From Bryoerythrophyllum caledonicum (taxonomy: Eukaryota > Streptophyta > Bryopsida > Pottiales > Pottiaceae): DNA of 64,000 bases. The stretch's first letter is position 1; the number at the start of each line of letters is the position of its first letter. The stretch spans positions 24,190,462 to 24,254,461 of the forward strand of contig OZ020517.1 of the NCBI GenBank assembly GCA_963971425.1, in the 5' to 3' direction. Of this stretch, positions 5,060-64,000 are shown piece by piece. The notes under the pieces were generated by a model. It was not told the origin of the DNA, did not search any database, and saw nothing but the letters and a program-made list of their open reading frames with translations. A program made the translations under genes and the position numbers.

Positions 5060-5063
5060 TTAA

Positions 5064-30646: not shown

Positions 30647-30669
30647 AAGCAGGATCGGCGACGTGCTAA

Positions 30670-31204: not shown

Positions 31205-31227
31205 AGGGCGGAGTGATGATCGGAAAA

Positions 31228-31384: not shown

Positions 31385-31598
31385 ACCAATTCCAAACGCC
31401 AAAACCGCAAGAAAGGAGCCATCCTATTCCTTCAGCATGCTGCACGGCACAGCATTGGTTTAATTTCGCAAGCAAGACTCACCAGAATTGGTTTCAGAAA
31501 TGGTTTGAGGGTAAGTACTTGTGTCGTGTGCCAACCGTGTGTCCTCTCACGAGGGAACGAATTAGATTGTGCCTCATTTGGAAGGCTTGGGATTCGGT

Positions 31599-31722
31599 GA
31601 TCCATGATCCGGAAGGGGGATGGCTTGGAGCAGCCCGCCCCATCGCGACTCGAGCATCTCACAATAGAGGGCATGCACGTTAATAATTGTGCCAGCGGCG
31701 GCTCGCGGTCGCGCGGTCCCTC
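31599..31722 (+). pseudogene. U1 snRNA pseudogene, copy H (type 2)
   Basis: It starts abruptly at GATCCATGATCC. The first about 20 nt, including the splice-site-pairing segment, and the promoter are deleted and replaced by sequence that lies about 400 bp away in the left arm. The U1A loop is mutated (ATCGCGA) and the Sm site reads AATTGTGCC. It cannot make a functional U1 RNA. Confidence 0.88.
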
Positions 31723-32652: not shown

Positions 32653-34149
32653 TTAACGCTGCTCGGTGCCGGAGCACGACGCCGGGCAGTCGGCGGGTTT
32701 GCAGAAGTTCACGCTCTGCGGCGCGAAGTCCGTGTTGGCCTGCGGCGTGACAGAGGTATCCACAGGGTTGCGCACCCAGCACTGCTTACGCACCTGGCCC
32801 CTGGTGCCGGTCAGCACGCTGATGCGGCCCATCTTAGCCATGGACACCTTGAACGCGGCGAAGAACGCGCTCTGGTCGCTGGCGTACTGGGTCACCAGGT
32901 TCTTGGTGCGGTTGTCGCTGCGCAGCACGTCGTCGGAGGTGAGCACGCCGCGACCCAGCACCAGGCTCCGGAAGTACCCGTTGTCGAACACAGTCGTCGT
33001 GTTCGGGTCCAGCGTCATCCGGCGGTCGATCCCCACCGTGTTGCCGTCCAGGCAGTACGTCTCCAGCGCCTGCCCGAACTCCGTGTCCAGGAACGGGGAC
33101 GTCGTGTTGGGCCCAAACCGGTCTGCGAACGTCGAGCACCGTGCCTGCCCAATCGTGTGACCACCTGAAACCACCAAAAAAAACAGTGAGAAATCTAAAG
33201 AATTCCAGAGCTCATGAAGAAGTTTGTGATCGATCAGTCAAAGAATTGTGGTTCAAAAAGTAGATATCTAACAAACTGTGATCGACTTCACCTCCTCACC
33301 TGAGAGGACAACGACGTCTGTGAGATTGAGTCCCACGTTTTCGAAAACCTCGAGCAGTCCTCCGACTCGGAGCGCGCTGCCGGGTAAGTTGGTCTTCGCC
33401 GCAGGTGCGAACGAGTCCAAGCCGTCCATGCGTCCGTATGCCAAATCGATATGTGGGCCTCCTGCCTGTGATCATATATAAACGGTGGTCAGTGCGATTG
33501 TAATTGCTAGCTGAAACTCAAATCTAATCCAAATGGGTGCATAGGATGGAGGCGCTGTGAGTGCGAGTGTGTGTACCTGCTCCACGGCTTCGGCGGCGGC
33601 GGCAGCGAGAATGTCGGCGCACGAGACGATGCCAGGACACGCGGTCTCGAGCTCTTCCTTGATGGCGTCGATGACGGAGTACTTCCCAACGGTGAAGTTG
33701 TTGGGGTGGTCACGCTCCGCGAGGTTCACGATGGTGGATCTCAACAGCAGCGACGCGTCGCAGCCGTTCACGAAACAGTCGTGGAAGAACAGGCGCAGCA
33801 GCTGCGCGGGGGTGAGCGAGTCCGCGGCGATCGCCGCGGCCACCTGACGCTTCACGATGGCAGGAAACGTGGGGCACGTCGTGGCGTAGAAGTCGTAGTT
33901 CAAGGGTCCGTCCCCGTGAACGTCGTCACCTGAAGGGCGGCCGGAAGCTGAAGCTGGAGCCAGAGCCGGAGCTGCATTCGGCACCCCCACTGGAGATGCG
34001 TTCGGCACCCCTACTGGAGGAGCAGCTAGGGGCGCTTGGAGCAGGTTGCGCCGCACTCCAGCACCGCTGAATGGACATCCATCAGCAGACGCAACCTCCG
34101 TCAAGGCTAATAAGCCGCAAAGCACACTGATAACCAACGCAACCTTCAT
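32653..34149 (-). CDS. Secreted class III plant peroxidase
   Basis: Three exons on the minus strand: 34149-33577, 33465-33300 and 33164-32653, with GT-AG borders and a continuous frame of 416 residues. It oxidises phenolic substrates with hydrogen peroxide in the cell wall or apoplast. Residues 1-22 form a signal peptide. The distal site is R119 and H123 in RLFFHDCFVNGCDAS and the proximal haem ligand is H249 in SGGHTIGQ. Most of the eight conserved disulfide cysteines are evident (TTCP, HDC, NGCD, TACPGIVSC, ARC, TYC, KQC). Between signal peptide and core lies a Pro/Ala-rich extension (about residues 35-75) with a repeated PVGVPNA unit, which is unusual for the family. The C-terminus carries three extra cysteines (NFCKPADCPASC). 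An upstream in-frame ATG at 34173 would add eight residues; 34149 gives the better signal peptide. It is divergent from the uclacyanin gene 0.8 kb away. Confidence 0.93.
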
Positions 34150-34576
34150 GATGATAATTAAATCAACCGTCAACTTTGAGCAGCACGTGTACTACAAATC
34201 TGCAAACCGAAACACAACAATGGTGAGCTCATGAAACTTCAGCCAGCTGGATCGAACTATGATCAGTATGTACAACAAATCTAGATCATCAGCTCTGAAC
34301 TTGTGCGGTTCTCTCAATCAATTGGAACTCATACAAAGTATCACAAATCCATGGGTCACATTAAACTTAAGAAAAACTTACACGAAGTGACGAAGTCCTA
34401 AGCTTGCAGGCTCTGGCTTTGGAAGTCAGAGACTTGAGGTGTGGGTAAGAGATGATTGCAGAGAAGTCAATGATCAGCAGACGATAGCACTCTCAAAGCT
34501 CTCACTCTTAGCATACAACTAAAAAGCTAGCTGAGTGCCTTGAGAGGATATGATAGTGAGAGGCCCGAGACTGGAC

Positions 34577-36366: not shown

Positions 36367-36370
36367 TTAT

Positions 36371-37308
36371 CCCCTAAATTTCCTTGACAATTTCACACCA
36401 AAAGCACTTCAAAACTGTTAATTCTAGTGCATGAGTTAGGAAGAAACATAAAGTCTTGTTTCTAGTTTTAACCGCATAATCTCATTCGACACTTGATAAA
36501 GAACATACTCACAAAATTTCATCAACTTTGACCGCACTGATTAAAAGACTGTAGTGTTTGAAGTAGAAAAAATGTTTCCTGTGTTGAGTGGATCAACAAA
36601 CTTTGACTTCACTTGGTGTCAAGTTTTGCACTACACAAGGTCTAAATTTTGTATCATGATGTTGATCATGATATTAACTCCTTGTACACCAATCTTTAGA
36701 GGGAAAGAAGGGGTGTAACATATTCAAAAAAATTGTGCAAGGAGTCGGGGTTCAAAAAGTACTAGTTCACATTTTAATTTTTTGGGAACAAAATATGTTT
36801 TAGGATGATAACCTGAATGGTCAATATGAAGGTTGAAACCATGTCTTGTAATATAAAAAAAAGTGAAAAATATGGAGATCTCAAAGCTTTATTTGGAAAA
36901 GAAAAAGTTTTTTTGGTTCCTTGCCCAACAATGTGTGGCAATGTGTAAAAGTCTTTGACTTGAGATTAAATGCATTTTTCCACAAAAATTTGCTAGTAAT
37001 ACTCAATACTAGCAAAAGTAATACTACAATATGCTAGGAAATAATATCACTTGCTAATACTCACGTTGTTGGTATTGAGTGTCCTAGCCGAAATTTTTGG
37101 AGTTGCCCAACGTGCCCGCATTCAACAATTTTTTCTTTACGATGGCATAAGTATTAGTTTTACAAGTCCAATGTACCTATACTTCCACGTACCTCTTGTC
37201 TTCTTGCATCTTTGTAAAAAATTCAAGAATTGCAAATATAAATTGCAACCATGGGAATGTGCCTCAAATTCTCAAAAGTCCACCTGGGTAATTTTTTTCA
37301 TTTAGGGG
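36371..37308. mobile_element. 0.9-kb TTAA-flanked non-autonomous element
   Basis: CCCCTAAATTTCC at the left (preceded by TTAT) and TTTAGGGG at the right (followed by TTAA, 37309-37312). The left arm matches 5064 and 63187. The interior around 37010-37280 is unusual for the family and lacks the typical right arm. Confidence 0.7.
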
Positions 37309-40234: not shown

Positions 40235-40504
40235 TCTGCCTATGTCTACTTACACCACTATATGCAAACGGACGTCGAACTTATGTTCAGTGAACTTGAG
40301 AGCGCATCAGCTTGTTCAGCACAAAAATTTCTAGATGCAAATTTAAGTGCAGTTCGATCATTTTCAGCTTTTTGCTGTCATTTTTCTGTCTTGAGCATGA
40401 TCTATTGTCGTGGGACAGTAGAGAAATTAATACAAACTAGTCAAAGGGAGATAGTACACCATCCGCTAGACAATTGGTGTATGAGGAAATAACATCATGT
40501 TTAA

Positions 40505-41432
40505 CCGCTAAAGGACCAAATCTCCTTTGGGGGGTTTTTGATTTTGGGCAGGTTCCTAAAATTCGAAAAAAAATCCTTTTTCTCTGAAATTTACATTCTA
40601 GATTTCCTCTGTTAAGAGCTTCGTGGAGATATTTTTATTTTATTTTTTGGATTTGTGATTTGAAAGTTAGTACCACTTAAAGCCAAAAGTGGGGACTCCC
40701 GGCAGTGGGCACCTCCAAAAATTTTGACAGAAGTTTCTATTGACATTGAGATTTTTCACACACATAAAGAATATTTCCTTCTTTGGAAATTTTCAAAAAA
40801 AATTCTTGTCTGTAGTGTAAAAAGGCATTTTATTCCAAGTCAAACATTTTCACACATTGTCGGGCAATGGGGGAAAAAAATTCATCTTTTCTACATAAAA
40901 CCTAGAAATCTTCATATTTTTACTTTTTATTTTTTCAGCAACAATATGTGGTGAAAACCTTCTTATCGACCGTTTGGAATATCATTCGAGTACATACGTA
41001 GTTCACAAAAAAATAAAACGTGAAATGGCAATTTTTGAACCTCCACTCCTTGCACATTTGTTTTGAATATGCTACACCCCTTTCTTACCTCTAAAAATTG
41101 GTGTGTTGGAAAATAACATCATGCTTAAGACAATGGTAAAAGATTTAGACCTTGTACGATGCAAAAATTTGATACAAAGAGAAGCCAAAGTCTGCTGATC
41201 TACTCAACGCAGGGAAGAAAATAAACCATTGTTTTGACTTCAAACACTAAAATCTATCAATCCGTGCGGTGGATTGCAACCAAAATTTCTAAGCATGTTT
41301 ATATAGAAGTCTATTTTAAGATCTTACGGTTGAAAATTCAAAATTAACTTTAAATGTGATTTTCATGTCTCTTTTTGGTAGTGGCAATTTTGGATTGGTT
41401 TTAGAGCGAAAGTGGTCGTGGTCCTTTAAGGG
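40505..41432. mobile_element. 0.9-kb TTAA-flanked non-autonomous element
   Basis: CGCTAAAGGACC at the left and GGTCCTTTAAGGG at the right, each bordered by TTAA (40501-40504 and 41433-41436). It is 928 bp and nearly colinear with 25023-25947. Confidence 0.85.
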
Positions 41433-41736: not shown

Positions 41737-42461
41737 TTTGAAGATCTTGATGAAGCTTTGAAGGAATGTATTGAAGCTATTGATATTTTCCCAGATTTGA
41801 AGAAATCTTACAAGGCACAATGTGATGTGATTGAAAAAATGAAGATCTCAAAAACAAGTTGAGTGAGCAATTACAAGGTGACCGGATTGCAATAGCGTTG
41901 GGTTTGGGTTTCGTGGGCAGAGGAGAGTGTAACCTTGGATCCTTTGACATGGAGACAGAGAACAAGCATCGCCTTTTAAATTGCAAAAGATGAATTTATA
42001 TATACTTCATGTTGTGCCTTCATGCCAAATTATATTCATGAAAAACATCTTTGTTTAAAATGGTTCTTTAACATTTGATTAGATCTTATATAAATCAATA
42101 ATTATAGAAGTGCAATCAATTTACAAGGGGAAATTAATTTTCTTAACATGCTTCTTATGTGATTGAAGTGTCAAAATTAAAATCAAGGAAGTATGGCAAC
42201 ACTAATATAAAAAATGCAATGATTTTTTATATAATTGTAATGATGAATTATACTTTGTTTGACTAGTAAACCCTAAAGGACCAATGTCCTCTCGGGGGAC
42301 ATTTTGAGTTTCAATTGAGTCCCACAATCTCAAGTTTAGGCATGACTTTTTATAAAAAAACTGGAAGTGGGCAACTTTTTAATAGCTTTCCACTGACATA
42401 ATTTTTGTAGAAATCTAATTGACGTTTCAAAAGTTACAAACATTTTTTTAATAACATATAC

Positions 42462-42488
42462 AACACGCAATTAAGCAATTATGCACTT
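42462..42488 (+). repeat. Subterminal inverted repeat, left copy (27 bp)
   Basis: It contains ACGCAATTAAGCAATTATGC, is followed by GCCA and AGTGCAC, and is perfectly complementary to 55774-55800. Confidence 0.85.
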
Positions 42489-43137
42489 AGCCAAGTGCAC
42501 TGGTTGCTGGTAGAAAGCCGCAAGTTATTTGCTCATAACCATTTTTTAAATCAAAATTTGGCAAAAGTTTCGTATGTTTTTTGTCAATTTTTTTTGGTGT
42601 TTGTCGTGTTATACCTTGGCATCTTCATGTTCATATCAGTAATATATTTTTTACATTTGCTACCTTTTTTTAGAAAATATATGATTTCTAATCTAGTTTA
42701 CAAATCCTGCTACAAAATTATAATTATGTGCCCAAAGAGATTATAAATTTGTTATGAGTTATTATAGGATTTTAGAGTAGTGCACTACAAATACAATGTG
42801 TAAGAGATACAAAAATATATATGCAATTTCCTAAGACAGTGTAAAGTACCTCACTGTATTTTATAATGCAAAAACATACATAATCAAGCAATTCCACACT
42901 ATCACTGAGGAATTCTAAAATCAAACATATCATATGGACCACCCAATATATAAATATATACCACCCACCGAACGATAGATACATCTTAAATTACAGTATA
43001 CTAACGTATTTGCCACCTAAACTGCGTGCATGCTCTACTATAGTATATAGCTCCACGGCTCAGAGCTCATCTTCTGGCGGAACGACTCCCTCCACGTGTC
43101 CAATGGCGCTACCTACCATAGCGGACAGTTCATGATC

Positions 43138-46100
43138 CTACACTGGATGATCTCCCACATCTTCGATGCCAATGGACGCACACTCAACATATCGGTAATT
43201 GCCAGGAACACCCTCCCGCGTATGCCTTACCCTATCATCGTTGTAGAAAAAACCATCCTCTTGATTGAAGGACATCTCTCGCTCTAACGAGAAGGCCCCC
43301 TGAAATGCAATGATGTCCTCGGATACACTAGATCTTGGAACGGAATGCAAACCTGGTCCGGTATCACTCTGAGTACCTCCGAACGTCTCTTGTGTCTTCG
43401 ATACAGGGTCTGTATGAGAAGGCATCGAAGGCTGTGGAATCCTCCTCTGCACCGAAAAAAATTCCAATGAATCCAATTCTTCTTCCTCCATCTCCAGCCT
43501 AGGACCATCAAATGTATGCCCCACTCCTGCCCCTGCCGCCAAACCAACATCCACTACACGGGTATCTTGCATCCTCTCTGTAGGTGTTGCAGACGTCTCC
43601 CCTGAAGTATTTCTCACCCCCTGCTGCGTTGATGGAATCCTCTCTCTTGGAGGAGACTGGTTCACTCCATCTTCATCGGCGTCTGAACAACTGCGAGATG
43701 AGAAATCGTCAGTGGTACCTGAACGTGGCAATCTCTCATGTAAACCACCTCCATCCTCATTGTCGTCTTCATTCCTCACTCCACCAACCGCCTCTTCAGT
43801 CTCAGGTACGATGTTGCAACCAGTACTTGTTCCACCAGTCCTGACCAACAGTTGTCCTTGGAAATTGTCGGACAACTCATTGTACAAGAATGAAACTCTG
43901 TCTGTACAATCGTCAATGATGAAAACCTCAGATCCCTGGAAATCTCCTTCAAGGATCGTGGGAATGGCCGTAGATATGTTACACGCCACTAAACCCCAAC
44001 CACGGGGCAAGTAAGAGTCCACTAGTCTTGCCAGCTCTGATGGAGATCTCTCAAGTGAATCAACTTCAGAGGGTTGGCGTGCCTCACTCCAGTGATCCAA
44101 GAAAACAAGAGGAAGTGGAACGTCTCCAGAAACATAGTTCGGGCTAGGAGATGTTCCCACAGGGTGCTGCATACAAATCACAACATCGCCAATCGGTTGT
44201 ACTACTTGCTCCAGACGCCCATTCTCTGTAAAATCGAGAGCATAGGGAATAACCGAGTTCGGATCAAACGCCCAACATCTACGTCGCATAGTACATCCCT
44301 CTGGAAGCTTCACCTTCGTGAAAAACTCTTCGTTGGCATACACGGCCGCTGGTAACAAGAAGATGACGTTCCATCGTTCAATATTTGCCATCCATAATGA
44401 CAGCTGTGCAAAAGCCGCGGATAACTGGGCGTCTCCCCAATGACCATCTCCATGCCTCCCACCGCCACGTCGACAATCAATCACCCACGAACATGGTTTC
44501 CCCAACTCTATGTAGTCGGTGCGGAATAACCCTCTTCTACACCGAATCGGAAGAAGATTCTCTGTGTCGCTCTGGCCTGGCCTCTTGACTTCCATCTGCC
44601 ATTCCCAATTAGCAGTAGCATGTCCTCCCACATCCACATACAGTCCAATATATCCACGCCCCCCTGCTGCAATATCACCATAATGAAACCTGATGGAAGG
44701 AGGGATGAGGTAGCCTATGTCTTCCAGCTTAGACACCTTCCCCCGCACAGGAGCAGTCCAAGCTTTTTTCGTGGTAGCATTCAAAAGCTTCCCAAAGGTA
44801 TCAAGTTGTGCGTTACTCCTTGGAAAATACTTCCCTACACGGATACGGAAGAACTCCTCCATGGAATCAGGTGTACTTTCCTTGTTCTCCACCATCAACC
44901 AACGGATGGAATTGATGACAGCTTCTCGTCTCTGATATCGGTCACAAACACCGGCAATCGTACGAGGATGTGGATTCTTGTCTTTTACACCGTCGAAGTA
45001 GTATGCTTGACGAGGTCTTACTCCATCCTCCGTCACCGGCTTCGCTGCAGCAGACTTTGCCAACCGAAGATAATATGGATTCGGAACCCTACCTAACGGC
45101 CTCAACCAATTCTGGGTCATCTCCTTTCTTGTTGGTCGTACGTCCACATTTGGATCGAGCTCTTTCTTCCTCGCCATGTCCTTCCACTTGTCCTCCTCCT
45201 CCTTGCTGTAAAAGAGAATGCCGTCTTCGTAGTCCTTGCATACTTGAATGATAGCTTCAAAGCAGTCATTGCTCGGATTCCATGCATGATTGGTCAGATC
45301 CTCCATATTTTTGGCCAACCTCTTCACCGTGACAACTCCATCCCCCTTGGGCAACTTATGCACTGCACTTGCTACACTCACCAAAGCAACAGCCCTGCGT
45401 GCATCGTCCGCACGTAGTGTGCTGTCAGGCCTCCCATATAGATCCCAAATCTGACGGAGCTTCCTCAAATCCTCCTCCATGGTAGAATACGACTGTCTCT
45501 GGAACTCCGCCACGTTGATCCGCACAGACTTCTCAATGTAAAAACGACGATCATCATACACTACAAAAGACGCCTCCCGCCGCTCGAACGTGTCTAGGTA
45601 CTCACTTAAAGGCATAGTACCATCTCTCCACTGCTGCTGTGCAAACTTACAAGCTGCTACTATGTGTTGCCCATCCACGGGTTCCCAAATGATATGATCT
45701 TGAAGCCAAGAATACTGGGATCCCATAACACCCTGTGCAGAAGCACTCCCGTGTGCAATGAACACGCGTTCAAACTCTCGAGCGGTTCCTACCAACGGAA
45801 ATGGCAGTTCTTCCTTCTCAACGACACCATCATCGGTGGTAGTATGCACGATGTATCTGATCGGTCGAAGTATCAATCTACTCACCCGAGTCGCGGATTC
45901 TGGGTCTCGTAAGCGGTTGAATACTTCTATGACCCTCTTCTGTGATAAAACGCGGTGGTTGGTTTCCGGATTCTCCACAGAGACAATGCGGTCTATGTGT
46001 GCCTTAAACACAAAATTCCCCCACACTGATCCTTTCGCAATCTCCTCTGATGTAGGCACTGGTGCTTTTAAATTCATTGGAGTTGGAAGATCCTGAGGTA

Positions 46101-46503
46101 TCTCCGCATTGTCTTCAAAATCCTCTGGTATACTGTCTGGAAGGTTGTGAAAATCTTCTTCCTCCGGCGCCATGGCTGACACATCAGCTAAATCTCCCGG
46201 TGTAGATGTAGGGGCCCTACGATGACCATCAGACGTCCTGAGCCCCGACCTAGGAATCCTGCCACCCGATCTTGCACTTCTCCCAATCAACCTCCTCCCA
46301 CTTGGATCCAAACTTGATGGGCCTTCTCTTGAACCAGAAGCTACATCACTGTCAACACGTCGTGGCCTCTTCGTAGGACGTCTACTCGTTAATGGAGGAT
46401 TCGGTAATGTCTGTACCTCAGAAGTTGTGGTGGGATGTTGGCCTCCACTTCCTCTCCCCCCCTCCAGTGGTCGCCAATCCAGTTGCAACGGCTCAGCAAG
46501 AAT
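43138..46503 (-). CDS. Large protein with ParB/Srx-like and methyltransferase-like regions (main ORF)
   Basis: A frame of about 1,120 codons on the minus strand, with no ATG near its start. It begins directly after an in-frame TGA (46504-46506), so it is probably the bulk of a single protein starting at 47025. Counting from a TTG at 46488: residues 1-150 are Pro/Ser/Arg-rich with a basic cluster (RRPTKRPRR). Residues 157-280 have the layout of a ParB/sulfiredoxin-like domain, with an NxxTNHRV segment early and VDGQHIVAACK late. Residues 340-600 are mostly helical. Residues 660-880 resemble a permuted N6/N4 DNA methyltransferase: WVIDCRRGGG at the position of the DPPY motif, then a Ser-Pro-x-Glu-Leu helix (RSPSELARLVDSYLPRGW) leading to a Rossmann-like strand and acidic turn (SEVFIIDDC). 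The catalytic DPPY is absent, so activity is doubtful. Residues 900-1116 are acidic and probably disordered. ParB-plus-methyltransferase fusions are known in bacteria and phages. This assignment is an inference from pattern. Confidence 0.6.
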   Translation of the reverse strand: MLAEPLQLDWRPLEGGRGSGGQHPTTTSEVQTLPNPPLTSRRPTKRPRRVDSDVASGSREGPSSLDPSGRRLIGRSARSGGRIPRSGLRTSDGHRRAPTSTPGDLADVSAMAPEEEDFHNLPDSIPEDFEDNAEIPQDLPTPMNLKAPVPTSEEIAKGSVWGNFVFKAHIDRIVSVENPETNHRVLSQKRVIEVFNRLRDPESATRVSRLILRPIRYIVHTTTDDGVVEKEELPFPLVGTAREFERVFIAHGSASAQGVMGSQYSWLQDHIIWEPVDGQHIVAACKFAQQQWRDGTMPLSEYLDTFERREASFVVYDDRRFYIEKSVRINVAEFQRQSYSTMEEDLRKLRQIWDLYGRPDSTLRADDARRAVALVSVASAVHKLPKGDGVVTVKRLAKNMEDLTNHAWNPSNDCFEAIIQVCKDYEDGILFYSKEEEDKWKDMARKKELDPNVDVRPTRKEMTQNWLRPLGRVPNPYYLRLAKSAAAKPVTEDGVRPRQAYYFDGVKDKNPHPRTIAGVCDRYQRREAVINSIRWLMVENKESTPDSMEEFFRIRVGKYFPRSNAQLDTFGKLLNATTKKAWTAPVRGKVSKLEDIGYLIPPSIRFHYGDIAAGGRGYIGLYVDVGGHATANWEWQMEVKRPGQSDTENLLPIRCRRGLFRTDYIELGKPCSWVIDCRRGGGRHGDGHWGDAQLSAAFAQLSLWMANIERWNVIFLLPAAVYANEEFFTKVKLPEGCTMRRRCWAFDPNSVIPYALDFTENGRLEQVVQPIGDVVICMQHPVGTSPSPNYVSGDVPLPLVFLDHWSEARQPSEVDSLERSPSELARLVDSYLPRGWGLVACNISTAIPTILEGDFQGSEVFIIDDCTDRVSFLYNELSDNFQGQLLVRTGGTSTGCNIVPETEEAVGGVRNEDDNEDGGGLHERLPRSGTTDDFSSRSCSDADEDGVNQSPPRERIPSTQQGVRNTSGETSATPTERMQDTRVVDVGLAAGAGVGHTFDGPRLEMEEEELDSLEFFSVQRRIPQPSMPSHTDPVSKTQETFGGTQSDTGPGLHSVPRSSVSEDIIAFQGAFSLEREMSFNQEDGFFYNDDRVRHTREGVPGNYRYVECASIGIEDVGDHPV

Positions 46504-47025
46504 TCAATAAACTTCTGTATCTTCTGGTTCCGCTGGTGGGGCTTGAGTTGTCGCACGTGATGGGTCCCTCTCCCGAAATGCTTCATATCTAATATGTTCC
46601 TCCATAATCTTCTTAGCCTTCAGCACCATCTCCGGTGATAACGCTAAACAGTCTAAGACGTTGTTGTGTCTAGCAGTACGTACCGCAAGAGAGATGTTTA
46701 ACCAAAACGTCTGCAATGATTTGAGGAATTTCACCTGACCTGGATTTTGAAGAAGATTCAAAGGGACAGGTGCCAAAAGCAACTTCTTCAAAAGAGAAGT
46801 CTTCACCTCCGATTGACCTGGACCCACTGCACAAGTAACGTATACCATATCATCACGTCGAAGAGTGAGTGCTTGGATTTTGCCAAAAGTCTTTCCCAAC
46901 GCCGATGTACGCTTCCCCAGCTCAAAGGGATAATCCGTCACCCATAAGAAGGCGCTCGACTCATCCACTTCTGTGATCCACCAGCCGTGGCTCTCCCAGA
47001 TTCTGTCAATATTTGGTGGTGCCAT
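46504..47025 (-). CDS. N-terminal part of the large protein, ended by in-frame TGA
   Basis: 174 codons from ATG 47025 (MAPPNIDRIWESHGWWITEV) to TGA at 46504-46506. The next frame continues in phase without a shift. The peptide has a Trp-rich start, a beta-rich middle and a helical end (LLKKLLLAPVPLNLL, then MVLKAKKIMEEH), and shows no signal peptide. I do not recognise the domain. The open frame reaches 47127, but MAPPN is a better start in context. Three readings are possible: a single nonsense mutation in a 1,300-residue protein, a short intron spanning the stop, or translation of a separate small protein. The intact frames on both sides favour a recent mutation or an intron. Confidence 0.6.
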   Translation of the reverse strand: MAPPNIDRIWESHGWWITEVDESSAFLWVTDYPFELGKRTSALGKTFGKIQALTLRRDDMVYVTCAVGPGQSEVKTSLLKKLLLAPVPLNLLQNPGQVKFLKSLQTFWLNISLAVRTARHNNVLDCLALSPEMVLKAKKIMEEHIRYEAFRERDPSRATTQAPPAEPEDTEVY

Positions 47026-47486
47026 AACGCAACACTCAAAAAACCTGTATATCATTACAAAACGATAGTCACTATTAGTATGGAATAAGATTTTTCTTAC
47101 ATATATAGATTTTTTTCGCAAAGGCATGACAATTACATCAATAGATGATCATTTCACATGAATAGAAAATGTGTATTGATTTAGGGTAAGACCTTGATTT
47201 TAGGGACAATTGTTTTAATATGTTACACTTTCTTCTAATTGCAAAAATTTGTGTACGTAGAACCAATACTATGGATAATTTGAAAGTCTAATATGTTAAG
47301 CAACAAAATGCATTATCTGTATCCTTCTAGAAACACTTCAAAGTTGTTCATTTTTATTGAAGACCAACTATTGAAAAATTAATCTACTTCCATCTTCAAC
47401 CCTAAATTCCAGTACTACTTCTCTTCCATTAAACACCCTTCATGTACTTGAAAAAATATATGAACAAATAACGAATATCATGTTGA

Positions 47487-48430
47487 ACCCCAAAGGTACC
47501 GTGATGGTTTCAAAAATAAACTTCAAAATCCTTGGTTCTAGTACAATGTATAAAAGAAAAAAAAATCAACTTTTATCTCTACTTTTAACCGTAGGATCTA
47601 AATTAAAACTTGTTAAATAACCCATCTACAAAATTCCATCAACTTTGACCGCCCCGATCGAAAGATTATAGTGTTTGAAACAAAACAAATGGTTCATTTT
47701 ATTCCCTATGTTTACCGGATCAAAAGACTTTGACTTCACTTCGTGTCAAATTTTTGCACTCCACAAGATCTAAATCCAATATCAACGTGTTAAGCATGAT
47801 CCTTTTAGTTTTGGTGAAATAGCATATTAATCCAAGTCAATCATTTCCACACATTGTCACACATTTTCGGCCAAGGTACCAAAAAATCTTCTACATTTCC
47901 ACATAAAACTTTGAGATCTTCATATCATTTACTTTTGATTTTTTCTAGAGCATTATGTGTTGTAACCCATATTATTGACCATTTGGATTCTCATTTAAAA
48001 CAATATCAAGTGCAGAAAGATATATAACGCGAATTGAGATTTTTTAAACCTCCACTCATTGCGCAATTTTTTTGAATATGCTACACTCCTTATCTACCTC
48101 TGAAATTTGGTATGTATGGAACTAACATCATGCCTAACATTATGGTAATTGATTGAGACCTTTTTTAGTGCAAAAATTTGACACCAATTGAAGTCAAAGT
48201 CTGCTGATCCAATAAACGCAGGGAAGAAAATGAACATTCTCTCTACTTCAAACATTATAATCTTTCAATCCGTGCGGTGAAACTTTATGAAATTTTTTAT
48301 GCATATTACTTAATAAGTCGTTACTGAGATCCTACGGTTAAAACTACCAAAAAAATCTTTATTTTTTCTTCCTTGCTAATTGTACAAAAACAAGCAATTT
48401 TAACGATTTTTGGTTGAGATATTCTCCACA
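47487..48430. mobile_element. Nested 0.9-kb TTAA element (degraded ends)
   Basis: It starts CCCCAAAGGTACCGTGATGG after TTGAA and has both characteristic arms (TTGACCGCCCCGATCGAAAG and ATCCGTGCGGTG). The right end is degraded to ACCAAGGTACTGTGG. It lies in the interval between the two large genes. Confidence 0.6.
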
Positions 48431-48453
48431 TCATTTATTGACCAAGGTACTGT

Positions 48454-48584
48454 GGGTATCAATAGTGAGGGTATCACCACCAGGGTATGGCTTCCTTAGT
48501 ACCAATACCCGGTTTTCAATCAGGGTATCAACCTAGGGTATCAACTTAGGGTTTCGGTTTAGGGTTTTGTATTTGCGGGTATCA
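48454..48584. repeat. Cluster of GGGTATC repeats
   Basis: Five GGGTATC words and one GGGTATG, several extended to GGGTATCAA, lie in one orientation within about 130 bp, followed by TTAGGGTTT-like phrases. They sit between the divergent genes and could be binding sites or simply a minisatellite relic. Confidence 0.55.
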
Positions 48585-48599
48585 ATGAAGGACATCAAT

Positions 48600-49300
48600 T
48601 CATTGCACCATTGGGTAGTTGTATGAGGGGTGTGCACGCGCACACCCCAGGCAGTTGTGAGGGAGGCTGAGTGTGAGAGCCTAGGGTTTGGAGGAGAGAG
48701 GGGAATGGAGGGGAGGTGTGAGAGAATTTGAGGGTGGGAGGGGAGCCGCCGCAGCTAGGTTTAGGTGGGAGGAGAATGTGAGCGTGTGAGNNNNNNNNNN
48801 NNNNNNNNNNNNNNNNNNNNNNNNNNNNNNNNNNNNNNNNNNNNNNNNNNNNNNNNNNNNNNNNNNNNNNNNNNNNNNNNNNNNNNNNNNNNNNNNNNNN
48901 NNNNNNNNNNNNNNNNNNNNNNNNNNNNNNNNNNNNNNNNNNNNNNNNNNNNNNNNNNNNNNNNNNNNNNNNNNNNNNNNNNNNNNNNNNGGCTAGGGTT
49001 TGGGTTGTTGATTGTGGCGGCTAGGATTTGAGTTAGGTTGGCGGTTTTTTCTACATGGCTGCTAGGGTTTAGCTTTGTGGGCTGGTGTGCATAGCTGCAG
49101 TCACAGATTAATTGTCACGCTATGGACTACCTCACCGTTTCAATTCTCAGTGGTTTTGAAGCCAACATTTCAGTACTATGCTCTGGACTGCACTCAGTTA
49201 ATGGCTATTATCGCGTATAAATACTGGACTTCTAATGGATTTGAAATTTTAGAGATATTGAAGTTGGTGTATTTATTTCTGTGATCAATGATTGCCTCAC
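48600..49300. other. Purine-rich, leader-like DNA around the assembly gap
   Basis: GC-balanced, G-rich sequence with repeated CTAGGGTTT phrases on both sides of the gap, similar in style to plant promoter or leader DNA. It could hold the promoter or first exons of one or both flanking large genes. No coding frame is supported. Confidence 0.35.
48791..48990. other. Assembly gap (200 N)
   Basis: Exactly 200 N, so the real length is probably unknown. Confidence 0.99.
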
Positions 49301-50066
49301 CTCATTCTATCGTATTGACCTATACTTAGAGTTTCCTAGTTTTGATTCTGCAATGAGACAGAGTTAGAGAAGCTTACCAAACTCGCGTGATTTGCCTTGA
49401 AGCTCCACTTGCCTCCTCCAATCTACACACCACACAAAGCTAATTGTAATTAGCAAATTAACTAATGAAGACACTTGGTTTTGATGTTGCAATTCCAGGA
49501 GGGCTCACCTTTGAAAGTGGGAAGAGAAGTGAGCATTTAGGTTTGAATGGAAACCTTATATGCACGTTGAAACCTTGTGCCTCAAGTTGAACAGTCCAAT
49601 TTTGACTTTTGGACTTTGGAAATTTTACTTTGTTTTCTATTTGTTTAAACTTTTAACTTATTACATTAAATTATTTTGGTATATAAAATATACCAATACT
49701 TGGGAGTTTTCATCGCGTAGTTTGAACAAAGCATTGTATAAATTTTATGCAGGTTTCGCAAGTAGGAAAGAGTGGAAGAGCATGTCTACCAACAGTAGGG
49801 GAATGGTGATTTAATGTTAAGCGCCATCAAATATCGGTGCTTGTATCGCTAATACTTGCAACGTATCTTGAGGTGAGAAATTATACTTGCAACATATTTT
49901 GAGGTGAGAAATTACTTGTTATTCATTTTTGGAATTGATTCCCTATCGATCTTTTGTTTTGTGTTGTTAGAATGAACTACATTTGGAATTAGAAATCCTT
50001 TCTTGTATTAGCGGTTGTAACAACTTTCAATGGTGTCAATAATAACAAGTAATATTATTTCTACAT

Positions 50067-50662
50067 TAACCCAAGTCAATCATTTGCCCACATGATCACG
50101 CATTGTAAGGCAAGGAACCAAAAAAACTTCTTCTTTTCCACATAAAACTTAGAGATCTTTATATTATTTTCATTTTATTTTCTCTCTCAAATGATGTGGT
50201 ATAAATCTTCTCTTTCACCATAATACATACGGATTTTCATTCTAAGACATGGTTACATCACAAAAAAATAAAGCGCAACTTGGTAAGTTTTGAATCTCTA
50301 CCCCTTCTACAATGGTTTCGAATATGCTACACCCCTTTTAAACCTCTAAAAATTCATGTAGAAGAATATAACATCATCATTAATATAATGGTAATGAACT
50401 TAAACATTTTGTAGTGCAAAGACTCGACACCAAGTAAAGTCAAAGAAAATTCCCCTCAACCTAGGAAAGAAAGTTAACCGTGTTGTCTACTTCAAACTTT
50501 CATCTTTCAATTCGTGTGGTCAATCTTTATACTTAATAAGTATGAACTAAGGTCGTACGCTTAGACGTATCCATAAAACCTTTTTGTTTCCCACTTTACT
50601 CATGGCAATAGAATGAGCGGTTTTGAAGAGATTTTGTTGTGAAAATGCCTGTCCTTTAGGGA
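50067..50662. mobile_element. Partial TTAA element (right portion)
   Basis: Internal and right-arm sequence of the family, ending GTCCTTTAGGGA at TTAA (50663-50666), which is shared with the next element. The left end is not found. Confidence 0.55.
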
Positions 50663-50666
50663 TTAA

Positions 50667-51583
50667 TCCCTAAGAGACCAAGTGTACGTAAGGGGTACGT
50701 TTTAGATCTTGAGCAAGTTACTAAAATTCTAAACTAAATTTTTAAGTTCAATTTTTTATTATACTAGATTGTCCCTGATAAGAGCTCGATGGAGATATTT
50801 TTAATTTGCTTTTTGGATTCATGGTGTGAAAGTTAGTACCACTAAAAGTTAGAAATGGGGACTCCGGGGAGCTCTAAAATTTTGCTGAGAGTCTCTAATG
50901 ACATTGAGATTTTCCATACAAGTAGATAATATTACCTTCTTTTAAAATTAAAAAAATCTTGTCTGTAGTGTAAAAAATAATTTTAATTGAAGTCTAACAT
51001 TTTTACACCTTTCGGGCAAGCGGGGAAAAAATTCATTTCTACCTAAAACCTAGGGATCTTCAAATTTTTTACTTTTTATTTTTTCAACAAGAATATGTGG
51101 CATAAACCTTCTAATTGACCGTTTGGAATATCATTCTAAAACACATTAAATTCTCAAAAGAATATATTGTGAAAATTGACAATTTTTGAACATCCACTCC
51201 TTGCACACTTGTTTTGAATATGCTTCAACCTTTCTCTACCTCTGAAAATTGGTGTAGGGGGAACTAACATCATGCTTATCACAATGGTAAAATATTTAGA
51301 CCTTCTGTAGTGCAAAAATTTAATACAAAGTCAAATCAAAGTCTACTGATCCACTCAACGCACGGAACATAATCAACCATTTTCTTGACTTGAAACACTA
51401 TAATCTTTCAATCCGTGTGGTCAAAGTATATGAATTTTTTTGAGTATGTTACTTAGTAAGTCTTGATGGAGATCCTACGGTCAAAAGGATAAATTTAAGG
51501 TTTTATTTCCTTCCTTATCCATTGCACTAGAATGAATAATTTTGAAGTGTTTTTGGTGTGAAATTGTCACGGGCTTTTAGGGG
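50667..51583. mobile_element. 0.9-kb TTAA-flanked non-autonomous element
   Basis: TCCCTAAGAGACCAAGTG at the left and GGGCTTTTAGGGG at the right, with TTAA on both sides (50663-50666 and 51584-51587). 917 bp, non-coding. Confidence 0.82.
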
Positions 51584-51587
51584 TTAA

Positions 51588-51974
51588 GTAACATACTCAC
51601 AAAGTTTCATAAAATTGACCGCACGGTTTGAATTTTTTTTATTTTTATAGTAGACAAAATTGGTTCATTTTTTCCCTAAATTGAGTCGATTACCGAAATT
51701 CTACTTTACTTGGTTTCAAAAGTTTGAATACATAGGGTCTAGATTCATTACCATTATGTCAAGAATGATATTAGTTCCTTGTACACCAATGTTTAGGGAT
51801 GGAGAAGAAGTGTAGCATATTGGAAGAGACTTTGCAAGGAGTTGACGCTCTTCATATATTAAATTTTTTCATTTCAAAGAAGTTTATCAAAAGGTTTAGT
51901 ATCATCATCATGTGATGAACACTATATATGTGATCAAAAACATATCTTATATCAGATGAATGGTGCTTTAGAGG
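51588..51974. mobile_element. Partial TTAA element next to the transposase gene
   Basis: Family left-arm sequence (ACATACTCACAAAGTTTCAT and onward) follows directly on the previous TTAA and ends CTTTAGAGG before TTAA (51975-51978). It lacks the terminal left about 150 bp. It ends just 60 bp before the start of the transposase-like frame. Confidence 0.45.
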
Positions 51975-52038
51975 TTAACAATTAGTATATGTATTTTGAC
52001 TAATGTGCAACTATGATGTTTTTTTTTCAATAGTGATA

Positions 52039-55000
52039 ATGGAGAGCCCTTCGATTCAGACTCCTTCGATACGGCCACACATCCAAAGGGATAATATGCT
52101 TTCCACTAGCTCTGTAGGGGCTCGATTAGTACGAGCAGCGCGTGCAAGGCAAATTCAACAGAGATCTGCTGGGATCATGACATCTGAATTGGAAAGGACA
52201 GTAGAATTGCTCTCTGAAAGAGAAGATGTGGTGGGCTTAGCAACCAGGGACCATGCATTCAAAAGTGGCATGGAATTGAATGGGTCGAAGCTGTTCCCAT
52301 TTGAGGTGGCGGTACGTATCACTAGGGTAGATGATGCATTGCATTGGACCGGAGAGATTGTAGGAGAACGCCTTGGCATGTGTGTGGGCTTGATCATTCG
52401 TTGGCCACGATCTTTGCTACGTGTAGTGGCAGTAGAACCTGATATTATAAGAGTCCATGGGGACATTGGATCACAGATAGCCCCTACACAAATGATGGCC
52501 CCAGAATTTGATTTTTCCGAGTTCATCAATATACCAGGATCCACCGAGAGGTCTCGACGTAGTAGTCAAGCTTCAAACGCCATTGATGAAAATTCGCCGT
52601 TTTCCCAGCCTACTCCTTCAAACATCCAAGATTTGCCCCATGTAGATGGATTTGTTTACGTTAGACCAGCACGCCGTCCCTATTCCATGCAAAATAGGAG
52701 AAGAAGAGTTTCAAGAGAGCCATCATTGACAGAAGCTGCACCATCAAAGGTATCACTTAGAAGCGTGCAAATTGCAATAGCACAAGGAGGATGCAAACAC
52801 AATTGTTTGAGGGACGTTCCAGCAAGGTATCTATTGGACATGCGATATAATGCATGGGGTAATGAGTTTTCAGTTCGAAGTACGTGGATGAGACAGATGC
52901 TGGTGTCTTTTTACACAAGGACGGAAGGAACTCGTCGAGACAAGTTTGTAACAAAGTTAGATGGGAAACAAGTTTGCAATGCTTGCTACGCTCCTGGGGT
53001 TGGATATTCACAGAGGCGCTTTAAGCAATTGAAGAAGGACTGTCTAATATATGGAAGAGTGACATCGATTCACGGCAATACCCTTTCAGATCCGATAAGA
53101 GAGAGTACTAGAATGTCTGCAGTAGAGGCTTGTTTTAAATCGTTTGTCGATGAAGCTGGTTGTCCTCAACCTCATCGTTGTATTCGCCGTAAGAGTGACA
53201 ACGAAGTGGTGCCTCTCATTCTCCTTCCTATGAATACAGCCAAATTTGATGTATTCAATTACGTGAATGAGGAGGTCAAGAGAATTTGTAATGGAGAAAC
53301 CATTTCTATGAGTTCGTTCCGGAGGATGTGGCGCATCAAGTATCCCCACGTTCAGGTACCTCCATTCTCGAGATTCTCAAAGTGTTATCATTGTTGGGAG
53401 TATAAATGTGCCATGGAGGGAACCACCAATACGGATGCAAGGATAAAGATAAAGGAGTTGTTTATGTTGCATCTGCGCAATCAGATGGAAGAACGTAGGC
53501 ATTATTGGATATTCAAGAGGTCGTGTTATATTAGCCCTGATTTGTACATGTGCATCATAGTGGATGGCATGGACCAAAACACAACCATGGTACCGAGGAT
53601 GCATCAGACTGTGAAGAACATTGAACACCGGTTTGTGAAGACCCATCTGTGTGGTGCTCTTGTACATGGCATTGGTTTATATTGCGACGTGTGGTTTGGG
53701 GCTCACCACAAACACGATAGCAATCAAGTCGTGAGTACATTGTTGTACGTCATTGGAGATGTGCTACGGAGGAGGGGCTTTTTACCACCAACACTGCGAA
53801 TTCAGGCCGACAACTGCACGCGTGAGAACAAAAACATTTTTATGTTTGCTCTATGTGCTACATTGGTGGGATTGGGGTTTTTTCAGGAGGTGGAACTATT
53901 TTTTCTTATAGTAGGCCATACCCACGAAGATATTGATCAACGCTTCAGTTGTATATCAAATACGTTGAAGAGGTCGGACGTGGACTCGTTGAAGGAAATG
54001 ATTAGTCTTATAGAACGAGGAACATCTCCTACGGAGGCATTTGTTAGCGCTCGGCTGCTAGAGAATGTATGGGATTGGAAATTGTTCATAACTCCTCACT
54101 TACTGACAGGTCAGGATTCATTGGTGGGCATAACATTTCCGCACCACATGCGATTTTATATGGACAATCGAGAAGGGACTCGTGAGGTTCGAGTACAACA
54201 TAAGCATTATTGCAAGGATCCATGGGGACCGGAGGCAGGGACGAAAACTTTGAGGTCGTTGCCAAATAGGGATGAACGACCATCGTTTGCGGAAGTATTT
54301 GCAGCGGACGAACGGGAGTTGAAGGCGTTGGATGACTTCATTGCATATAAGCAAAGGTGCATTCAAAGGTTGCAACATGAGGACAAGAATCGTGAGGCAA
54401 AAGTAGAGGCTGAAAGATTGAAACTCTATTTAGCTCAATTTCCACACAAAGATCGTAGCAATGAGCATCGTACCTCACCATTTTGGCCTTCAGAGTTCTC
54501 CAACACCAGACCTACAGGGAGCACATCTTTGGATGTAATGGTTAGTGCAAGTGAAGAAAATCGCGAGGTAAATGTCGTAGAGCAGGTAGTGGCCATGCTT
54601 CCAAATGCCGAGGCTCGAGGATACTTTGGTCCTCGTAGAGGAAGACCCTCTAATCAAGCAGTGCATAGGGCACAACAAACAGAGCGCAACTATGTTGAGG
54701 AACGCGCCGAAGAAGGAGCAATGTATGAAGGTAATCACGACCCATTTCCACCATTTAATCCACAATCTGATATCCGTTGTGGACAGTTTGTAGCCTTGAG
54801 TGTTGATCGAGCAGAGATAGAAGGCGGTGTACCATTCTATGTGGGGAAAGTGATTGAGGAAGGAAAAAACCGATGGAGACTTAAGATTAAAGTTTGTTGG
54901 TATTGGCCCATCATCCAAAGGGGGGTTACTGATGGACATGGATCTTCTGCACAACGATATGCGAATTGCATGGATTCATTCTGGGAGCCATCTGGGGAGA

Positions 55001-55230
55001 GCCATAGTTGGATAGAGAAAGATGCATGCATTTTTTCATGGGTAGACACACCGGAAAGAACCATGTCCGGGGCCAACGGGTGCAGAAAGCGCAATGTATT
55101 TGGAGTGCAAGTTGAAAGCAGGATTCGCATTCTTCAATCGGCAAAGGCTCACATCCTACAATATATTGCAATGCAAACCGAAGCTATCGATGACGACCGT
55201 TTGCAAGCAGCCCTAAATTCTATGGAGTAG
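52039..55230 (+). CDS. DUF7869-type transposase-like protein (RNase H-like, DDE)
   Basis: An uninterrupted frame of 1,063 codons from ATG 52039. The frame is open from ATG 52003, but 52039 lies just after a pyrimidine tract plus CAG-like acceptor (TTTTTTTCAATAG at about 52019-52031), which suggests a leader exon upstream. Residue numbers below count from 52003. Zinc-type cysteines occur at 264 and 268 (CKHNC), 325 and 328 (CNAC), and 461 and 464 (CYHC). The catalytic-type core is at 515-650: IIVDGMDQN (D521), LRIQADNCTRENKN (D603) and FLIVGHTHEDIDQRFS (H641 to D645). This is the signature of eukaryotic DUF7869 proteins and matches the three acidic positions of DDE-type RNase H folds, with about 38 residues between the second and third. 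The C-terminus (930-1010) has a BAH- or Tudor-like pattern (FYVGKVIEE, then VCWYWP). It probably acts as a nuclear DNA transposase. Intact coding suggests recent activity or selection. Confidence 0.8.
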   Translation: MESPSIQTPSIRPHIQRDNMLSTSSVGARLVRAARARQIQQRSAGIMTSELERTVELLSEREDVVGLATRDHAFKSGMELNGSKLFPFEVAVRITRVDDALHWTGEIVGERLGMCVGLIIRWPRSLLRVVAVEPDIIRVHGDIGSQIAPTQMMAPEFDFSEFINIPGSTERSRRSSQASNAIDENSPFSQPTPSNIQDLPHVDGFVYVRPARRPYSMQNRRRRVSREPSLTEAAPSKVSLRSVQIAIAQGGCKHNCLRDVPARYLLDMRYNAWGNEFSVRSTWMRQMLVSFYTRTEGTRRDKFVTKLDGKQVCNACYAPGVGYSQRRFKQLKKDCLIYGRVTSIHGNTLSDPIRESTRMSAVEACFKSFVDEAGCPQPHRCIRRKSDNEVVPLILLPMNTAKFDVFNYVNEEVKRICNGETISMSSFRRMWRIKYPHVQVPPFSRFSKCYHCWEYKCAMEGTTNTDARIKIKELFMLHLRNQMEERRHYWIFKRSCYISPDLYMCIIVDGMDQNTTMVPRMHQTVKNIEHRFVKTHLCGALVHGIGLYCDVWFGAHHKHDSNQVVSTLLYVIGDVLRRRGFLPPTLRIQADNCTRENKNIFMFALCATLVGLGFFQEVELFFLIVGHTHEDIDQRFSCISNTLKRSDVDSLKEMISLIERGTSPTEAFVSARLLENVWDWKLFITPHLLTGQDSLVGITFPHHMRFYMDNREGTREVRVQHKHYCKDPWGPEAGTKTLRSLPNRDERPSFAEVFAADERELKALDDFIAYKQRCIQRLQHEDKNREAKVEAERLKLYLAQFPHKDRSNEHRTSPFWPSEFSNTRPTGSTSLDVMVSASEENREVNVVEQVVAMLPNAEARGYFGPRRGRPSNQAVHRAQQTERNYVEERAEEGAMYEGNHDPFPPFNPQSDIRCGQFVALSVDRAEIEGGVPFYVGKVIEEGKNRWRLKIKVCWYWPIIQRGVTDGHGSSAQRYANCMDSFWEPSGESHSWIEKDACIFSWVDTPERTMSGANGCRKRNVFGVQVESRIRILQSAKAHILQYIAMQTEAIDDDRLQAALNSME

Positions 55231-55773
55231 ATAGTGTGCCTTTTTTAGTGTATACTAGTTGTGTATGGTAATTGATATATAGTGTATGTGTAAGAGTAGT
55301 ATATTCTAAGGGTGATGTAAGACGTTATGTCATTAATCCTTTAGAGTAAAGCTGTGTTTACTATCGGTGCTAAGTCGAATTGTTGAAGCATCTATATTTA
55401 GTTTTCACCATTGTATGCATTATGTACTATGTAGAATATCTTTTAATCAACTGCCAACCCTTGCAAAAAGTATGTTTTTTTGTAATTAAGTCTGTTTATA
55501 TACTACAATTCTTCAAATCTATCTTTGGAATATTGTGAAACTATATTAAATACACATTTATCTAGTATTAACGAGGGGCCACCACAAATTAGTTGAAAAT
55601 GCCAAAAATCGCTTCCAATATGAACAACCATAATTGTACATAATATTGTTGCAGAAGCTCAATTTTTTTTCCTTATGAAAACATTTTTTTTCTTTGATTT
55701 TTTTTTTTTTTCCAATTTTGCCACTTTTGTTCGCAATGGCCGCCGTTGTACCCAAGTGCACTTTTAAATGGCC

Positions 55774-55800
55774 AAGTGCATAATTGCTTAATTGCGTGTT
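55774..55800 (-). repeat. Subterminal inverted repeat, right copy (27 bp)
   Basis: Exact reverse complement of 42462-42488, followed inward by TGGCC and another AAGTGCAC, as on the left. Confidence 0.85.
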
Positions 55801-55929
55801 ATACAAGTAGTGCAACGGTTTAGTGGAACATACAACAAATAGTGTAGCAAAACTTTAATTAATTATAAATTTGATAGAGCTTCAACATTTTGTCCATTTT
55901 TTTAAAAAAAAACCCTCTTGGAAAGAGAG

Positions 55930-56412
55930 TGGGAATCTTTGCATCAAGCGTATGGATTTTTGAACCTCAAAAATATGAGAAGATACATATATGCAAAACT
56001 TGTTAGTGATTGTTAATTCTCAGCACATAATTGCATTGCGGGATTTTTAAGGACATCTTTTATCCCTCTTCTACTTCTAAAATTTGGTACACATGTGCCT
56101 AACATGATCCTTTTTAAATTAAAATTAGAAGATCATGGCCAGTAGTGCAAAAATTTGCCATAGAAGGTGGTCAAAGTTTATAGAAGGTGTTTAGTATGAC
56201 CTCAAGAAGAGTTTATGCCTCACTTCTGAGGTTGGTATCCTTTAATCCGTACCGTCAAACTATACCAAAATTTTACCACACACTTGTATAATCCTAGTAT
56301 AAGATCCTATGCTTTGATATGTAAAAATTGTGTTCATTTGCATTTTGTATTGAATGCATTGAAACTGAAAATTTTATTGAGTTTGGGTTCTAAATGTCAA
56401 GTTCCTTAAGGG
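55930..56412. mobile_element. Right arm shared with the 0.9-kb TTAA elements
   Basis: It shows the family order (TTGAACCTC, CTACTTCTAAAATTTGGT, AGTGCAAAAATTTG, ATCCGTACCGTCAAAC) and the end CCTTAAGGG at TTAA (56413-56416). It may be the true right end of the 14-kb element or a separate solo arm. Confidence 0.6.
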
Positions 56413-62064: not shown

Positions 62065-63090
62065 CTCCCAAATGGCCAAGTGTAAATAATGGGCTTTTGA
62101 AAGTTCGGTCAAGTTCATGTGGTGTCAATTTCCAACATTCTACTTTGAATTATTTTTTTTACTATAGAAGGACATTACTAAGACCTCAGTGGTAGAACAA
62201 TTTTTTTCTAAATCCGACATTTATTGAAAAAATTATGGGGTTTTGAATTTCAAATGGGAAGACCGTGCACTTTGGGCACCTCCAAAAACTTTTGCTAGGA
62301 CACTCTATTGCATGTGAGATTTTCAATACTTCCAAGTAATATTATTTACCTTCACAATATCAAAAAAAATTCTTGTCTTTGGTGAAAAATAGCATATTAA
62401 CCCAAGTCAAACATTTTCACACATTGTCACACATTGTCACACATTGTCACACATTGTCACACATCGTCACACATTGTCACACATTGTCACATTGTCACAC
62501 ATCGTCACACATTGTCAGGTAAGGAACCAAAAAAACTTCTGCAATTCCACATAGAACCTAGAGATCTTCACATTTGTACTTTTTATTTATTCCACAACAA
62601 TATGCAGTTCAAATCTTCTTTTCGACCATTCGGATTATCAACCTAAAACATATTTAGTTCACAACAAATTTAAACATGAATTGGCAAAATTTGAACCTTT
62701 ACTTCTTGCACAGTTGTTTTGAATATGCTACACCCCTCTTCTACCTTTAAAAAATGGTGAATAAGTAACTAACATCATGATTAACACGATGGTAATAGAT
62801 TTGGAACTTGTGTAGTGCAAAAATTTGACATCAAGTGAAGTCAAAGTCTGCTCATCCACTGAACGCGGGGAAGAAAATGACCCATTTGCTTGCCTTCAAA
62901 CACTATATTATTTCAATCCGTGCGGTCAAAGTGAACAAAATTTTGAGAGTATGTTACTTAACAAGCCTTATTTGAGATCATACGGTCAAAACTAGAAATA
63001 AAAGTTCATGTATCCTTTTTCCATTCACAACACTAGAATCCTATAATTCTGAAGTGTTTTGGGTGTGAAATTGTCACAGTACCTTATGGA
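62065..63090. mobile_element. TTAA-flanked non-autonomous element with internal minisatellite
   Basis: CTCCCAAATGGCC at the left and ACCTTATGGA at the right, bordered by TTAA (62061-62064 and 63091-63094). Both arms are of the 0.9-kb family; the extra length comes from the CACATTGTCA expansion. Confidence 0.72.
62413..62518. repeat. 10-bp minisatellite CACATTGTCA
   Basis: About ten near-perfect units, two of them with CATCGTCA. Related elements have a single CACACATTGTC at this position, so the expansion is local. Confidence 0.92.
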
Positions 63091-63186
63091 TTAACTTAGG
63101 CCGTGGATCAAAAAAAGATGAAGTATTGGTCCCCCAAGTTTGCAAATTACTCCAATAGTGGCCACCTATGGGCCTCTCATCCTTAA

Positions 63187-64000
63187 CCCCTAAATTTCTT
63201 TCACAATTTCACACCAAAAACACTTGATTACTGTTGATTTTGAAAGGATTACTGCAATGACTTTGAAAGGAGACAAAAATATATCTTCCCAAATTCAACC
63301 CCTAAATTTCCTTAACAATTTCACACAAAAAACACATTAGTATTGTTAATTCTAGTGCAATGAATGAGGAAAGAAACAAAAAAAAATCATTTATAGTTTC
63401 AACCGTAGGATCTCATTAAACACTCAATAAATAGCATACTCACAAAATTTCATCAACTTTGACCACATAGATTGAAAGATTATAGTGTTTGAAGTCAAGT
63501 AAATGGTTCATTTTCATCCTTGCATTGTGCAGATCAGTAGACTTTGACTTCACTTGGTGTTAAAGTTTTGCACTACACAAGGTCTAAATCCTTTATCATC
63601 ATGTTGATCATCATATTAACTCCCTGTACACCAATTTTTAGAGGTAGAGAAAGGGTGCATCACATTAAAAAAAAAATGTGCAAGGAGTGGAGGTTTAAAT
63701 AGTGCCAGTTCATGTTTTGTATTTTTTGGGAACAAAATATGTTTCAGAATGATAATCCCAACGGTCAATTTGAAGGTTTACACCACATCTTGTAGTAGGA
63801 AAAATGAAAAGTGAAAACTATGAAGATCTCAAAGTTTTATGCGAAAAAGAAGAAGTTATTTTTGTTCCTTGCCCGACAATGTGTGGCAATGTCAAAAAAA
63901 TCTTTGACTTGGGATAAAATGCATTTACTCACTTAAGACAAGAAATGTTCTTTGACAATATGTTAGGAAATAATCTTACTTGCTAGTATTGAAAATCTCG
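63187..64000. mobile_element. TTAA element with doubled left end, running off the window
   Basis: CCCCTAAATTTC follows TTAA (63183-63186), and a second left end CCCCTAAATTTCC follows TTCAA about 110 bp later. It continues in left-arm sequence to the window edge. The right end is outside. Confidence 0.65.

Follow-up and report, generated by a model that had tools for sequence, protein, structure and literature searches.

The window analysed here, a stretch of 64,000 nucleotides from contig OZ020517.1 of the moss Bryoerythrophyllum caledonicum, very probably contains at 42462-55800 a single copy of a high-copy DNA transposon with terminal inverted repeats (TIRs), encoding a DUF7869 protein as its DD(D/E)-type transposase and a partner protein with a predicted ParB/sulfiredoxin (ParB/Srx) fold. 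The genome containing the window comprises 437 Mb in 894 contigs, and 20 further copies were taken from it with their surrounding DNA for a comparison of edges. In a preliminary description of this DNA, a DUF7869 protein and a second giant protein had been proposed to sit together in one self-contained element. Shared ends, target-site duplications and linked genes strongly support such a multicopy transposon, with boundaries and target sites that are not those first proposed.

The termini are formed by a perfect 27-bp inverted repeat, which had already been noticed inside the proposed element and which turns out to be its true edge. The left arm, AACACGCAATTAAGCAATTATGCACTT, lies at 42462-42488 (+) and the right arm at 55774-55800 (-); the repeat extends to 40-nt arms that are 90% complementary and separated by 13.3 kb. 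The search of the genome for further copies, suggested in the preliminary description, did find them, and the edges they share are those of the 27-bp repeat, with differing DNA outside. All 20 copies have the same right end, ...TTAATTGCGTGTT, free of mismatches over 27 bp in 18 of them (one mismatch in C10a, two in C9b), and the DNA beyond it differs among all 20. The left end is present in 13 of the 20, one of these being damaged (C12); of the seven copies lacking it, three are on stretches that start within the element, three miss the left part and one lies at a contig end. As in transposons of the TIR cut-and-paste type, terminal inverted repeats are thus found at both ends of many copies.

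Immediately beyond the ends of the window copy stands an identical tetramer, ATAC, at 42458-42461 and 55801-55804. Exact 4-bp duplications are found in 13 of 13 readable copies (12 plus the window; C12, with its altered left end, was left out), and in none of them does the exact duplication run longer, so that the length is constant. They read ATAC, TATA, AAAC, TGAA, TGTA, GTAG, AACA, TGGT, AACA, TATG, CATA, TTGA and TAAA, with an A+T content of 75%. Neither TTAA nor AWWT occurs among these 13 duplications.

These observations bear directly on the span first proposed for the element, 42271-56412 (14 kb), with CCCTAAAGG ends next to TTAA. Strings resembling CCCTAAAGG are indeed present around 42271 and 56412, where they delimit an older repeat that the element interrupts. 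When the window flanks were fused at a single ATAC and matched against the window and the fetched loci, locus L027 (601-1393) gave a continuous match of 811 columns (78.8%) to window 42267-42461 plus 55805-56400, with a single ATAC visible in the alignment. From this uninterrupted paralogue it follows that the insertion of the transposon split an older repeat, about 790 bp long, in two, and that the CCCTAAAGG-like strings mark where this repeat begins and ends. The only uninterrupted site found is this paralogous one, with a single ATAC and not a single TTAA; no excision footprint was found. The proposed TTAA transposon of 14 kb, ending in CCCTAAAGG, is hardly credible on these grounds and is ruled out by the outer stretches occurring element-free in L027 and by the other copies, 20 of 20 of which stop at the 27-bp repeat with differing outer DNA.

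The family is abundant, and its two genes travel together. A genome search with the right-hand protein found at least 43 places (93-97% identity, leaving the window out of account) from 4296 first-look candidates, and a search with the left-hand protein found at least 41. Among the matches listed are 12 gene pairs arranged divergently as in the window, which is itself one of them, as are some fetched copies. Copies whose edges leave out one of the genes had been named as evidence that would speak against a two-gene element, and most fetched copies are not of that kind: 16 of the 20 have the left gene at full length, matching in one to three pieces, and it is partial in two (C8b, C2a), absent within 10 kb in one (C4c) and at a contig end in one (C188). 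At loci L016 (C4c), L019 (C8b) and L021 (C2a) the right gene and right end are kept and the left gene is missing or cut, through deletion, nested insertion or misassembly.

The two genes also descend together, as their distance matrices agree (Mantel r 0.94, p 0.0004, for the 7 copies with both genes aligned); C12 is an exception, being nearer to other copies in its left gene than in its right. Purifying selection acts on both, with a median ratio of nonsynonymous to synonymous substitution rates (dN/dS) of 0.27 over 17 copies of the left gene and 0.24 over 8 copies of the right gene, and both proteins have therefore been selected for during the spread of the family. Some copies are nearly identical: the left genes of C14a and C14b show 0 differences and their right genes 0.06%, and the left genes of C6a and C8a are 0.05% apart. 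Since these pairs stand at different sites with different duplications, they must have moved recently. Among the matches listed, 21 of 43 right genes and 21 of 41 left genes are free of internal stops as far as the match extends, the window left gene being counted as stop-free in this tally because its stop falls outside the query. Both frames are long and conserved, which would also be expected if chance had brought together two host genes with no relation to each other, or domesticated transposase genes. Dozens of copies at different sites, and 20 fetched copies with the same right end, mostly the same layout and target duplications that vary between sites, leave that explanation with a negligible chance of being correct.

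The right gene (52039-55230, +) belongs to an uninterrupted frame at 52000-55230 (+) of 1076 amino acids, in which the methionine at 52039 aligns with the start of related proteins. Residues 544-726 (53629-54177, +) match DUF7869 (PF25273) in Pfam with an E-value of 4.6e-49, and the score of 167 bits, against a curated cut-off of 26, places the protein in this family. The acidic triad claimed for its core is borne out by conservation. D522 (53563-53565, +) is D in 23 of 23 sequences, D604 (53809-53811, +) in 22 of 23, and D644 (53929-53931, +) in all 22 sequences that have a residue there; D646 (21 of 22) is an alternative for the third position. An RNase H fold is supported by prediction, so that the protein is predicted to have the RNase H-like core with acidic triad that is typical of TIR transposons, and it is a likely transposase in which these residues would be the catalytic ones. 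Public protein sets contain 22 relatives at 36-83% identity; short-pattern scans confirmed none in viral contigs or prokaryotic genome contigs, and a literature search found no paper on DUF7869.

The left gene (43138-47025, -; 1295 codons in the window copy) runs in the opposite direction. In the window it is one frame that a single in-frame TGA (46504-46506, -) splits into open reading frames (ORFs) of 214 and 1121 amino acids; this TGA is found in none of 16 other aligned copies. The frame ends at a stop at codon 1296, which 15 of the 16 other aligned copies do not have. Two long, divergent and nearly intact genes are thus present, as first described, with the right frame open and the left frame cut by one TGA only. 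Structure prediction gives residues 334-511 (45493-46026, -) of the left protein a ParB/sulfiredoxin fold, and the structural similarity of this core domain places it in the ParB/Srx superfold, as distinct from the ParB family. Against viral models, Foldseek returned two unnamed matches with an E of 0.001 or lower and, at weaker scores, a 'Chromosome partitioning protein' (E 0.015) and a 'ParB/Sulfiredoxin domain-containing protein' (E 0.41); these agree with a ParB fold, short of proof.

At the level of sequence the searches were negative. When 11 members were compared with Pfam and NCBIfam at an E cut-off of 10, there was no match to the ParB profiles PF02195 and TIGR00180, and hhalign found no match to sets of 3 and 8 ParB proteins, the 8 plasmid ParBs doing no better than a reversed control. 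Comparison of the members with Pfam, NCBIfam and PHROGs yielded scattered single-member matches (best E 0.002, 0.0091 and 0.0018), none of them to ParB; further weak profile matches were to Spermine_synt_N (E 0.12, N-terminal piece) and DUF2469 (E 0.12). A sequence search of the PDB gave two Skp1-type chains at an E of about 0.04, in a variable region near the C-terminus. With tblastn the left protein had no match among phages and two at E 5 among plasmids, both Cupriavidus records, one of which was inspected and is hypothetical-protein DNA. Sequence-level ParB homology of the left protein finds no support in these profile, hhalign, PDB and tblastn searches and is rejected. Relatives in public protein sets number 10 plus 2 more (P0023-P0034), and short-pattern scans of viral contigs confirmed none there.

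The predicted core has a further feature of its own. The ParB motif is of the G-x-R-R type, and in the left protein it is replaced by DGQH (residues 451-454; 45664-45675, -), which is invariant in protein alignment A2 in the context E-P-[VI]-D-G-Q-H-[IV]-V-A-A. The ParB/Noc/KorB and sulfiredoxin proteins resemble residues 334-511 in predicted fold, with no match in sequence. The available text of PMC4619093 describes DGQHR, DndB and GmrS (DUF262) proteins that have the ParB/Srx fold and a nearly invariant DGQHR or DGQQR; the left protein shares the DGQH, but its fifth residue is I or V, not R, and the NCBIfam DGQHR profile does not match it. The GmrSD homologues counted in that paper are almost all prokaryotic. 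In the accessible parts of a survey of the ParB-CTPase fold (PMC12704722), the fold is said to be often associated with mobile elements, and sulfiredoxin to be its commonest eukaryotic form; a search of its main text for the stem 'transpos' found nothing.

It could also be argued that the left protein is a Rossmann-type DNA-modification protein or a decayed methyltransferase-like one, in which the C-terminal half (residues about 800-1030) is active and the ParB-like part a mere DNA tether. That half does contain W-x-[IV]-[IVF]-D-C-R-R and 'LER.P.E..RLV', conserved in A2, which we take to resemble amino-methyltransferase motifs. Pfam, NCBIfam and PHROG searches gave no methyltransferase match, however, no canonical DPPY-type motif was seen in A2, and the C-terminal half is mostly modelled at a predicted local distance difference test (pLDDT) score under 50, all of which makes this reading improbable.

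Candidate protein-binding sites lie at the ends of the element. A dyad TGCACTT-N4-AAGTGCA at 42482-42499 overlaps the left terminal repeat at its inner edge, and a second, TGCACTT-N10-AAGTGCA, lies at the right end (55757-55780); in each, one half belongs to the terminal repeat. Facing pairs of TGCACTT and AAGTGCA with a spacer of 0-14 occur only twice in the 64 kb, once per element end, and the end sequences of 12 other copies all retain both dyads, the spacer being 4 nt at the left end and 10 nt at the right. By itself the heptamer is not rare, occurring at 29 places in the window, where about 8 are expected from base composition. Either protein may bind these dyads. In the mechanism that we propose, the DUF7869 protein would act as a DD(D/E)-type transposase that cuts at the AACACGC... 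ends and inserts the element without a fixed target motif, by a 4-bp staggered cut that would leave 4-bp duplications. The second protein, from the divergent gene, would most likely bind DNA near the terminal dyads, and its ParB/Srx-fold core may help to pair or deliver the element ends; that it binds these ends, uses a nucleotide or acts in transposition at all is an inference, as is catalysis by the DUF7869 protein.

Sola3, piggyBac and Kolobok transposons have TTAA duplications, in place of which the 13 readable copies show variable 4-bp ones, and this sets the element apart from all three. Kolobok elements (PMC9587614, available in part) are similar in combining a DDD/E transposase and a second protein within one TIR element, so two-protein TIR transposons are a kind already known. 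With Sola1, Sola2 and Sola3, compared by description only, the element shares 4-bp duplications, a DDD-type triad (D522, D604 and D644 or D646, with a predicted catalytic role), terminal inverted repeats and a size in the reported range. According to the accessible text of a review (PMC10741241), Sola transposons have a DDD transposase and 4-bp duplications, can exceed 15 kb and are reported from the moss Physcomitrella; capture of an extra protein (Fanzor1) by Sola2 is likewise on record in what is available of PMC3627910. It is almost an even chance that the element is a Sola-superfamily transposon to which the gene of the second protein was added as a passenger, a reading supported by the 13 of 13 4-bp duplications and the conserved D, D, D triad. 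Against it, the Sola2 families described in that part of PMC3627910 have AWWT duplications, seen in 0 of 13 copies here, and the available descriptions in PMC10741241 and PMC3627910 mention no second gene of ParB fold, as is predicted for the element here. Purifying selection on the left gene and its joint descent with the DUF7869 gene speak against a passenger. A Sola identity as such is compatible with a DUF7869 transposase working with a ParB/Srx-fold partner; only the passenger role is not.

A bolder and rather doubtful possibility is that DUF7869 marks a transposase superfamily of its own, and that these are the first eukaryotic DNA transposons to depend on a ParB/Srx-fold partner. In the manner of ParB at plasmid parS sites, such a partner would be loaded as a nucleotide-switched DNA clamp at the dyads next to the terminal repeats, and would pair or protect the two ends of a large element (13 kb or more). 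No prior description of a DUF7869 and ParB-fold pairing was found in the titles and abstracts listed by the literature searches, with unlisted papers, Repbase and most subscription journals outside their reach. The feature that appears to be new is thus the predicted ParB-fold partner in a two-protein TIR transposon.

The region between the divergent genes (47026-51999) contains copies of an abundant repeat of about 350-580 bp and a gap of 200 N (48791-48990). A 200-N gap lies between the genes in the window and in 19 of 19 long upstream stretches (L010-L028), and in the copy checked (L014) GC-rich tandem repeats flank it on both sides; it could reflect assembly failure in tandem repeats, or masking, and the element may be longer than its visible length. 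The intergenic repeats are also common outside the element: the 350-580-bp repeat occurs in the window at 5052-5638, 25019-25784, 36367-36987, 40501-41335, 47483-48414, 50066-51845 and 62274-63999, and within fetched transposon copies as well; several of its copies in the window have CCCCTAA-like starts, similar to the CCCTAAAGG-like strings of the older repeat. Elsewhere in the window there is an inverted 2.3-kb duplication (18402-20712 and 29293-31604, 93.7% identity), there are further repeats of 0.2-0.8 kb between 17 and 40 kb, and an ORF at 33472-34191 (-) matches the first 92 of the 237 positions of a plant-type peroxidase profile (PF00141, E 6.9e-29), as would suit a plant genome.

For DUF7869, until now a domain of unknown function, these results offer a concrete role, likely that of a transposase, in a recently mobile element whose ends and target duplication are defined. 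They also point to a two-component eukaryotic transposon in which the predicted fold of the partner is known mainly from bacterial proteins of DNA partition, plasmid control and DNA modification. Genome annotation is affected too, as a high-copy family of this kind is open to confusion with host genes. Should the partner prove necessary, one could test directly how large DNA transposons join their distant ends.

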